Made by a program: the position numbers and the translations under genes
Shown here: positions 37,852 to 40,628 of the stretch, in pieces
Layout of the letters: every line of letters starts with the position of its first letter
Numbering within the stretch: position 1 is the stretch's first letter
Origin: Cryobacterium sp. GrIS_2_6
GTDB taxonomy: Bacteria > Actinomycetota > Actinomycetes > Actinomycetales > Microbacteriaceae
Length of the DNA stretch: 64,000 nt
NCBI RefSeq assembly: GCF_035984545.1
Contig: NZ_JAXCHP010000001.1
Coordinates: 3,224,001 to 3,288,000, forward strand
Direction of reading: 5' to 3'
Notes under the pieces: generated by a model
What the model saw: only the letters and a program-made list of their open reading frames with translations
Databases searched by the model: none
Told to the model about the DNA's origin: nothing

Positions 37852-37922
37852 GCGGATGTAGTTCAATGGTAGAACTTCAGCTTCCCAAGCTGATAGCGCG
37901 GGTTCGATTCCCGTCATCCGCT
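37852..37922 (+). tRNA. tRNA-Gly (CCC)
   Basis: 71 nt that fold as a cloverleaf. Acceptor stem GCGGATG/CATCCGC; anticodon stem TCAGC/GCTGA with loop TTCCCAA, giving anticodon CCC; T loop GGTTCGATTCC. The discriminator is T and the 3' CCA is not fully encoded. This decodes GGG. Confidence 0.97.
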
Positions 37923-37980
37923 CCGTGTCACTTCCCGACGCCTCGTTTCCGGTATTCTCGACGCGGACTGAGGAGTACCT

Positions 37981-38763
37981 GTGACTGACCCCACCTTGCG
38001 AATGCCGGACACTGTTTTGCGGGCGGTGCTGGACCTGGGCGACCTGCCGTTGGAGGCTCCGCCGCTGCCGACCCGGTTCCGGAACCCGGTGCTGAACGCC
38101 GACTGGTTCGTCGACGGTGAAGGCGAGAACGACGAAGAAGAAGTGGCCGTGTTCTCCCTCGGGTTTGAGGGCGGTGAGCTGCACCTGGAAACGACGCCTG
38201 ACGGTGTCGAGCACCACTTCCATGGCGCCGACGGGGAAGAGAGTGATCGCAGCCCGTGGCCGAAGCGGGAGACGAGGGAACTGGTGGCGTGGGCCCTGGC
38301 GCTCGTGAAGCACACTCTCCCTCTGCTCGAAGATCTCGCGGAGGACGCCGAAGAGGCCGCCGACTGGCACCACGAGGGGCTTCGGGTCTACGCCCGCGAC
38401 TTTGGCGCGGTGCCCCTGGAGATCGTGGACGTTGCCATTCCCGGCGAGCAGATGATGCTGCCCTGGCTGGGGTCCGGGCGCACAGACCACCTGCACACGG
38501 ACGACGAGGCACGCAGCCTGATCCTCACCTGGAACCCGGAGGACGCGGACCCCGAGACGCCGATTGTGCGGGCGTGGCTCGATGCCGGTACGGGGGAACC
38601 GGTCTCCGAAGCGGTCGCCGGGGTCGACTGGGTTGCGGTCGGGCTCCCCGAGGAGGAAGTGCGCGCGTGGTTCGAAGCGTTTTACCTCAACCACGAGGTC
38701 CTCGACGACCCCGCCGAGCTCATCATGCGTGCCGCCCTGAACCGGATCGCGGGCCTGGGCTAG
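37981..38763 (+). CDS. Acidic protein of unknown function
   Basis: 260 residues, strongly acidic (for example ENDEEEVAVF, EDLAEDAEEAADW), no membrane segment, no signal peptide. Tryptophans recur in DWFVDGE, DWHHEGLRVY and DWVAVGLPEEEV. I do not recognise a domain. The GTG at 37981 follows GAGGAG at 5 nt. The gene sits 58 bp after the tRNA-Gly gene and converges with the gntK-edd-eda remnant. A short imperfect hairpin (CTGGGCT/AGCCCAG) follows at 38767-38797. Confidence 0.7.
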   Translation: MTDPTLRMPDTVLRAVLDLGDLPLEAPPLPTRFRNPVLNADWFVDGEGENDEEEVAVFSLGFEGGELHLETTPDGVEHHFHGADGEESDRSPWPKRETRELVAWALALVKHTLPLLEDLAEDAEEAADWHHEGLRVYARDFGAVPLEIVDVAIPGEQMMLPWLGSGRTDHLHTDDEARSLILTWNPEDADPETPIVRAWLDAGTGEPVSEAVAGVDWVAVGLPEEEVRAWFEAFYLNHEVLDDPAELIMRAALNRIAGLG

Positions 38764-38806: not shown

Positions 38807-39396
38807 TCAGGGCCGCAGGCCGGCGGCCTGGCGGGCCAGCCCTTCGATGCGCGTCCAGTCGCCGAGTTCAATGGCATCCAGCGGAGTGATCCATGTGCCG
38901 CCGATGTACCCAACGTTGGGCAGCGCGAGGTAGACGGCGCGCTCGCGAGCGTGATCCCGCCCGTCGGACAGAACCGCGCTTCCGGCAGGGGCGCCGCGAG
39001 TGAGCGCAGCACGGCGTGGCCGCCGGAAGCCTCTGCGGAGAAGAACTTCATCTCCGGGTGTCCGCGCTCGATCAGCCGCAGGAGCTCCGGCGCGATCGCG
39101 GCGCCCGGCAGGTAGGGCAGACCGGATGCGTCCATCGCGTCGAGCAGGGCATCGGTCGACCCGGGAGAAATCAGGAACCGAGCCCTGGCTTCGACGGCCC
39201 GACTCACGAGGTGCGGATTGTTGACCGTTCCGGCGCCGACGACGGCGTCGGGCACCTGGTCGGCGATGGCGCTGACCGCACGCAGTGCAGCCGGGGTGCG
39301 CAGCGTCACCTCGATGACCGGAAGGCCACCCGCGACGAGTGCCCGAGCCAGTGCCACCGCGCGGTCGGCATCCTCGATGACGACGACGGGGATCAC
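38807..39396 (-). pseudogene. eda: KDPG aldolase remnant, frameshifted
   Basis: 2-keto-3-deoxy-6-phosphogluconate aldolase, last enzyme of the Entner-Doudoroff pathway. Visible: IEVTLRT with the catalytic Glu, MKFFSAEASGG with the Schiff-base Lys, and RFCPTGGIT. Shortly after this, near 38936-38945, the frame is lost. The proper ending (AVYLALPNVGYIGGTWITPL through AAGLRP) is intact in the next frame and stops at 38807. Restoring it needs one added base or two removed. The N terminus is also cut: the GTG start at 39396 falls where homologues already have about 10-15 residues. The Lys neighbour Pro (FFPAEASGG) is Ser here. The gene is inactive as read. Confidence 0.9.
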
Positions 39397-39530
39397 GGGG
39401 TTCCGTAGAAGGTGCAGGTGCCTGCGGAGTGGTACGACGCCGTCTCGGCCTCGAGAAGTTGCTCGCGGTCGGCTAGGCCTTCGGCGTAGAGCTGGCGGAT
39501 CCGGCTCTTTTCCTTCCTGGCGGCCTCCTC
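39393..39530 (-). pseudogene. edd: 6-phosphogluconate dehydratase fragment
   Basis: About 42 codons remain of a dehydratase of about 600 residues. [13 protein letters not shown] and [14 protein letters not shown] match the E. coli Edd segment [13 protein letters not shown]...[14 protein letters not shown], which includes an iron-sulfur cysteine. It is fused in frame after the gntK tail and ends where the eda sequence begins, so both sides were removed by deletion. The TGA at 39395-39393 overlaps the GTG of eda. Confidence 0.85.
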
Positions 39531-39994
39531 GGCGGGCGGCCTGGCGACATCGATGAGGATGCCTCGTTCGTCGGAATCCAGAGGCTCCAGCGTGTCGAGC
39601 TGCGAATCAAGGAGGGTCGTCGGCATGAAGAGGTCGAGCCGAGCGGACATCCGTGCGCCGAGCAGGTGATGATGCCGGGAACATCGGCCATCGTGTGCTC
39701 GATGATCCATGACGACACGGTGTCGAGCCATGGCCAGCGGTCGTCGTCGGTGAGCGGGGTACCCGACGCCATCTTGTTGACGTTCGCCTCGGGATGCAGA
39801 TCGTCACCCTCGGCGAAGTCCCACCCGAGCCGGCCGGCGAGCAGAGCAGCCACCGTCGACGTGCCCGACCCGCAGACACCCATCACGACCAGGACGGGTT
39901 GCCGACCGGAGGCAACGACCGGGAGTTGCGGGTCGCCGCTGGCGCTGGCTGGTGGGGTGGCGTCGGTCACCGCGGGTGCTGTGGATGAGTACAT
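39531..39994 (-). pseudogene. gntK: Gluconokinase remnant with internal deletion and lost P-loop lysine
   Basis: Gluconate kinase, first step of gluconate catabolism. The start (ATG 39994 after GAGAGG) and most of the N-terminal half are intact: [49 protein letters not shown]. The Walker A lysine (GSGKS) is Thr (ACG instead of AAG). At about 39657 roughly 85 bases are missing, equal to the KKxYRDxLR and beta-strand region, and the frame shifts. The downstream part ([18 protein letters not shown]...[14 protein letters not shown]) continues in another frame and joins the edd fragment. The gene cannot encode an active kinase. Confidence 0.92.
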
Positions 39995-40109
39995 CGTCGT
40001 CCTCTCGCGAGGGCGCATCGGCGCGACCTCATTGTCAGGCCAGCGGCACCAACCCGGCGAGCGCGGCGCTCGACCTCGGCCCGGCGCGCTTCCCTGCTAT
40101 CGTGCGTGG

Positions 40110-40628
40110 ATGATGACCGAGGGGTTCACGATTCGCCGCACGACGGCGGCAGACTGGCGCGAGATCCGGGAACTTCGACTGGAGATGCTCCGCGACACGC
40201 CCCTCGGCTTCGGGGAGACCTTCGACGCCGCGCTCGCCCACGACGAGGCCGAATGGACCATGCGCGGAGCACGCGGCACCGATGAGCATTCGATCGTCGT
40301 CGTGGCGATCGCGCCCTCTGGGCGCTGGGTCGGGACGATGGGCGGCTACGTTCCCGACGAGGCGACGGGTGCGCTGCTCGTCGGTGTCTACGTTGCGCCG
40401 GACTACCGCGGCGGGGCGGCCGGCGTGACGGATGCCCTCCTGTCGCGCATCGAGTACTGGGCGCTCACGGAATCGGGTCGGCTCACGTTGCACGTGCACG
40501 AGCACAACGACCGCGCCCGCGCCGCCTACGAGCATCGCGGCTTCACGGCAACCGGCATGACCGCGCCCTACGACCTCGACCCGACGACCCGGGAACTCGA
40601 GATGGTCAAGCAACTCACGGCGTTATAG
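40110..40628 (+). CDS. GNAT family N-acetyltransferase
   Basis: 172 residues with the acetyl-CoA fold: TIRRTTAADWREIRELRLEML at the N terminus, strand LLVGVYVAPDYRGG with motif A (RGGAAGVTDALL), and LHVHEHNDRARAAYEHRGF. A TATCGT box lies exactly 6 nt before the ATG at 40110, so the transcript is probably leaderless. The long open frame upstream is the antisense of gntK. It is divergent from the broken operon. Substrate unknown. Confidence 0.88.
   Translation: MMTEGFTIRRTTAADWREIRELRLEMLRDTPLGFGETFDAALAHDEAEWTMRGARGTDEHSIVVVAIAPSGRWVGTMGGYVPDEATGALLVGVYVAPDYRGGAAGVTDALLSRIEYWALTESGRLTLHVHEHNDRARAAYEHRGFTATGMTAPYDLDPTTRELEMVKQLTAL

Follow-up and report, generated by a model that had tools for sequence, protein, structure and literature searches.

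A very probable relic of an Entner-Doudoroff operon in Cryobacterium sp. GrIS_2_6 and a gntK-edd fusion frame in its relatives

The window is a stretch of 64,000 nucleotides (G000:C1:3224001-3288000) from the genome of Cryobacterium sp. GrIS_2_6 (G000; 4.34 Mb, two contigs). Three relatives from the same genus, G033, G061 and G065, were used as comparison genomes; their operons are at the loci L040, L044 and L045, respectively, and the gntP-gntK-gntR region of G000 is at L048. Pieces of gntK, edd and eda are found on the minus strand of the window at 38807-39994, all of them where the initial annotation had placed them. In the order of transcription these are two pieces of the gluconokinase gene, about 39 codons of edd (6-phosphogluconate dehydratase) and most of the KDPG aldolase gene (Table 1). 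The start codon of gntK (ATG) is at position 39994, and the stop codon of eda occupies 38807-38809. The open frames of the remnant have lengths of 181, 112 and 535 aa, the last of which runs into sequence antisense to the neighboring 260-aa gene.

Table 1. Features of the remnant and of the adjoining genes (window positions)
Feature	Position	Strand	Basis
Front part of gntK, original ATG to first deletion	39655..39994	-	TIGR01313 profile 1-80, alignment to three relatives
Later gntK part, not in frame with the front part	39515..39654	-	TIGR01313, identity to relatives
Internal edd piece, about 39 codons, between the 663-base and 1194-base deletions	39400..39514	-	TIGR01196, G033 identity
eda without codons 1-13 and with a one-base loss near 38936	38807..39399	-	Pfam Aldolase, alignment
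GTGA overlap of the GTG at eda codon 15 with the accidental stop of the edd piece	39393..39396	-	Alignment, coordinates
260-aa gene without Pfam match, adjoins eda in three relatives too	37981..38763	+	
GNAT acetyltransferase gene, divergent from gntK, kept in three relatives	40113..40628	+	
Junction of the 82-base deletion in gntK; one copy left of the relatives' 11-13 base direct repeat	39655..39665	-	
Junction of the upstream deletion; operator-like palindrome gone	40041..40043	-	

The 181-aa frame matches NCBIfam TIGR01313 (E 8.6e-29, profile 1-80), and the frame that follows it matches the same family (E 4.4e-7, profile 106-156); the later gntK part is 83-87% identical to the three relatives. 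The best gntK piece scores 100.4 bits, which is below the TIGR01313 cut-off of 113.75, and is therefore not classed as a GntK; its P-loop is also broken. The edd piece matches TIGR01196 (E 4e-15, profile 184-225) with 55.1 bits against a cut-off of 708.25 and is thus not a full-length Edd. It had been estimated at about 42 codons; the piece is real but comprises about 39 (approximately 115-116 bases when set against the whole copy), corresponding to residues 409-447 of the fused protein of the relatives, and is 97.4% identical to G033 over 115 bases. The eda remnant matches Pfam Aldolase (E 1.8e-43) and is 94.3% identical to G033. The E-values of these pieces are far beyond chance. The trimmed N terminus and the single frameshift first reported for eda were both recovered, as was the GTGA overlap between the edd piece and eda, which is accidental.

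A DNA search of 57 genus genomes, including G000, identified G033, G061 and G065 as the three other genomes in which the pieces of eda, edd and gntK all have strong matches. When the complete G033 gene was used for a protein search, the operon was found in 3/57 genus genomes; G000, one of the 57, gave no match. In the three relatives, as in the window, the 260-aa gene lies on one side of the operon and the GNAT gene on the other. At this locus it is whole in G033 and G061, with which the alignment to an intact related operon proposed in the initial annotation was made, and has one extra base late in edd in G065. Relative to G033, approximately 2 kb was lost from the window. Because the whole counterparts in sister species are near-identical, each lesion can be read off. 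An empty-site comparison with other genus members did not succeed: in 19 further genomes with matches (identity 60-68%, one 45%), the stretches covered around 26 loci contained no other flanking protein.

Genes with TniB and DUF4379 domains are present beyond the 260-aa gene in G033 (L040:8977-11954) and G065 (L045:11448-14518). The alignment of these two genomes to the window ends at the window tRNA-Gly(ccc) (37852-37924), a tRNA not found in the two stretches, which probably reflects a transposon insertion beside the tRNA. In G061, about 4.1 kb (L044:765-4880) separate the epimerase gene from the GNAT gene, its neighbor in the window, and the locus therefore varies on both sides. The extra base in G065, around L045 8135, shifts the edd frame in an assembly rated 83% complete; it is either a sequencing error or an early lesion, a second start of decay.

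Alignment offsets gave 82, 663 and 1194 bases missing inside the operon, both against G033 and against G061. A gap of about 85 bases near 39657 had been reported; the gap is real, its size is 82 bases and its position is that of the repeat in Table 1. The direct repeat that bounds it is 13 bases long in G033 and 11 in G065, with a single copy left in the window, and replication slippage at this 11-13 base repeat was probably the cause. As read by eye, there is one shared base at the junction of the 663-base deletion and no shared base at that of the 1194-base deletion; that both lengths are multiples of three is taken as chance. A fourth deletion upstream of gntK, which took the operator and was missed in the initial annotation together with the intact gntP-gntK genes elsewhere, amounts to 138 bases against G033, 139 against G061 and 126 against G065. 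The change of the Walker-A (P-loop) Lys of gluconokinase to Thr is confirmed at 39860-39862. The lesions that abolish function are the three inner deletions, the upstream deletion, the Walker-A substitution and the eda frameshift. The initial annotation's account of the gntK-edd junction, a fusion brought about by the deletions in the window, was rejected. The fusion is older: G033 and G061 have the two genes as one 831-aa frame already, and it was within this fused gene that the 663 bases were lost.

In G033 and G061, gntK is preceded by a palindromic ATCTGATTAATCAGATT-like unit in three overlapping copies, and in G065 by a close version. With at most one mismatch, TCTGATWAATCAGATWA occurs at one place in G000 and at two places each in G033, G061 and G065, where overlapping matches were counted as one place; the reversed-pattern control gave 0 matches in 4/4 genomes. 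The exact pattern TTAATCNGATTAA has no match in G000. One palindrome is located between gntP and gntR in 4/4 genomes. In the three relatives the second precedes the fused operon; in the window, no counterpart precedes the remnant. The gene facing gntP codes for a GntR-FCD regulator, and we infer that this regulator controls both palindrome sites as putative operators, which for the relatives points to a two-site gluconate regulon.

Elsewhere in G000 (L048) an intact gntK is located beside gntP, the gene for a gluconate:H+ symporter, and a GntR regulator gene, and one match to 6-phosphogluconate dehydrogenase (gnd) was found. As these genes remain, entry of gluconate into the pentose phosphate pathway is probably retained, and gluconate use as such was probably not lost in G000. 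No other edd was found in G000. The loss is thus unitary for edd, without a functional copy elsewhere, but not for gntK, of which the proposed search for further copies showed an intact one.

Private changes in eda (199 codons) number 5 synonymous and 11 nonsynonymous in the window lineage and 9 and 1 in the G033 lineage (Fisher p 0.0053). For the flanks, the window lineage has 7 synonymous and 2 nonsynonymous changes in the 260-aa gene and 1 and 3 in the GNAT gene, and the eda counts do not differ significantly from the pooled flanks (5/11 versus 8/5, p 0.14). The eda contrast is therefore clear against the sister G033 and not clear against the flanks. Between the window and G033, the flanking genes share 96.6-96.8% identity, as against 85.4% and 83.0% for the two gntK pieces; the value for eda is 94.3% and that for the edd piece 97.4%. 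In contrast to the flanks, the gntK pieces have G065 rather than G033 as the nearer relative (88.3% and 86.5% identity), which indicates a locus of mixed history; G033 and G061 are 94.9-96.5% identical in gntK versus 90.7-92.6% in the flanks. Because of this mixed history, the counts for the gntK front (12 synonymous and 10 nonsynonymous in the window, 3 and 5 in G033) are hard to read. An exchange of gntK alleles among these species is likely and leaves the verdict of loss unaffected.

The remnant is very probably a non-functional relic of an Entner-Doudoroff operon which in the relatives consists of a gntK-edd fusion gene and an overlapping eda. The operon would have been present in the common ancestor of G000, G033, G061 and G065 and would then have decayed in the lineage of the window. 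Through at least four deletions, the Walker-A substitution and the frameshift, it has lost its operator, the active site of gluconokinase, the greater part of Edd and the final part of Eda. Judged from gene content, the cell would import and phosphorylate gluconate via the separate gntP-gntK, and 6-phosphogluconate would then pass to 6-phosphogluconate dehydrogenase. The case is one of ordinary, recent, lineage-specific gene loss, and the early view of an operon eroded recently by several separate events agrees with the identity of eda (94%) and edd (97%) to the whole G033 genes and with the lack of a second edd.

An operon that is whole in the organism and appears broken by assembly or sequencing error is very unlikely. 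A single assembly is available and one deletion sits at a direct repeat, where assemblers can collapse sequence; however, a repeat of 11-13 bases is unlikely to be collapsed, one base and no base are shared at the two remaining inner junctions, and the gaps have no bearing on the point changes, namely the Walker-A Lys to Thr substitution and the 11 nonsynonymous changes in eda. A new function of the remaining frames, such as a short protein from the gntK front or from the edd-eda pieces, is extremely improbable: the three frames are open, but the Walker-A Lys is gone, about 39 residues are all that is left of Edd, the sequence upstream has been deleted and nonsynonymous changes predominate in eda. 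Next to no probability is given to redundant debris beside a complete gntK-edd-eda set elsewhere. The intact gntK and two other aldolase-family genes in G000 would fit such a set, yet the sole other PF00920/TIGR01196 match in G000 is a dihydroxy-acid dehydratase (IlvD), which refutes it for edd within this assembly, and the other aldolase genes adjoin a 2-keto-3-deoxygluconokinase-type sugar kinase gene in one case and a galactonate dehydratase gene in the other. Read as a decayed operon, the locus is a clean case of the loss of the Entner-Doudoroff route, and it also points to a GntK-Edd fusion protein in the relatives.

In G033 (L040:4774-7269) and G061 (L044:5648-8143) gntK and edd form a single open frame of 831 aa, the stop of which overlaps the eda start as TGATG. 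The 831-aa protein scores 183.8 bits with TIGR01313 and 972.6 bits with TIGR01196, both over the cut-off. The G033 fusion has kept the kinase P-loop, 189/190 near-invariant Edd columns and 4/4 invariant Cys, as compared with 77 Edds (80 Edd loci minus three with stops inside the match). By eye, a ribosome-binding-like sequence precedes both gntK and eda in G033, and none was seen before a possible internal GTG common to the three relatives. The three fused kinase sequences form one side of a branch with a support of 100/100 in an unrooted tree of 20 rows, and this tree does not show that the fused kinase arose from the gntK of the genus itself.

With two candidates scored per genome, the GntK-Edd fusion was found in 0/398 family genomes at E <= 1e-100, a set that held no genome known to match, and 1/396 phylum genomes matched at E <= 1e-100, with the Edd part only; with this scope, both negatives are weak. 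The gene order had been described as exactly that of a catabolic operon, which holds only in part; it recurs with separate genes in an Aeromonas caviae record, but within the stretches covered, some of them short, no gntK was recognizable near 83 other Edd loci (80 named loci, the best 80 of at least 586, and three same-order loci). Nine plasmid-collection records covered at least 80% of the query; among the three examined, two have a separate gntK just before edd and one has gntK after eda. An Azospirillum record has gntK directly before edd as separate genes, and solved relatives are separate enzymes (e.g., 2gp4 and 4eun). On balance, these sequences favor as the ancestor of the relic a predicted bifunctional gluconokinase-6-phosphogluconate dehydratase, which would convert gluconate to 2-keto-3-deoxy-6-phosphogluconate in one polypeptide, would be confined to this small clade and would share its GntR-type operator with gntP. 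If so, the window shows how fast a fused shortcut is discarded when separate gntP-gntK and gnd remain.

The closest known systems are the operons of G033 and G061, which share the locus and the gene order, with identities to the window of 94% and 89% in eda and of 97% and 91% in the edd piece, respectively; they are whole and have the operator-like element, both of which the window lacks. The GntK of G000 at L048 belongs to the same family, TIGR01313, and has the same operator-like element in its region, but is a separate protein of 205 aa with an intact P-loop and stands apart from the fused kinases in the unrooted 20-row tree. In actinobacterial edd-eda pairs, among the best 80 of at least 586, Edd is up to 73% identical (Longimycelium, L120) and eda is often close downstream, but in none of the 80 named loci was a gntK found close to edd. 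The Aeromonas caviae record (L177) has the same gntK-edd-eda order on one strand; it differs in having gntK and edd as two genes divided by a stop, and its Edd and GntK are 55% and 44% identical, respectively, to the G033 protein.
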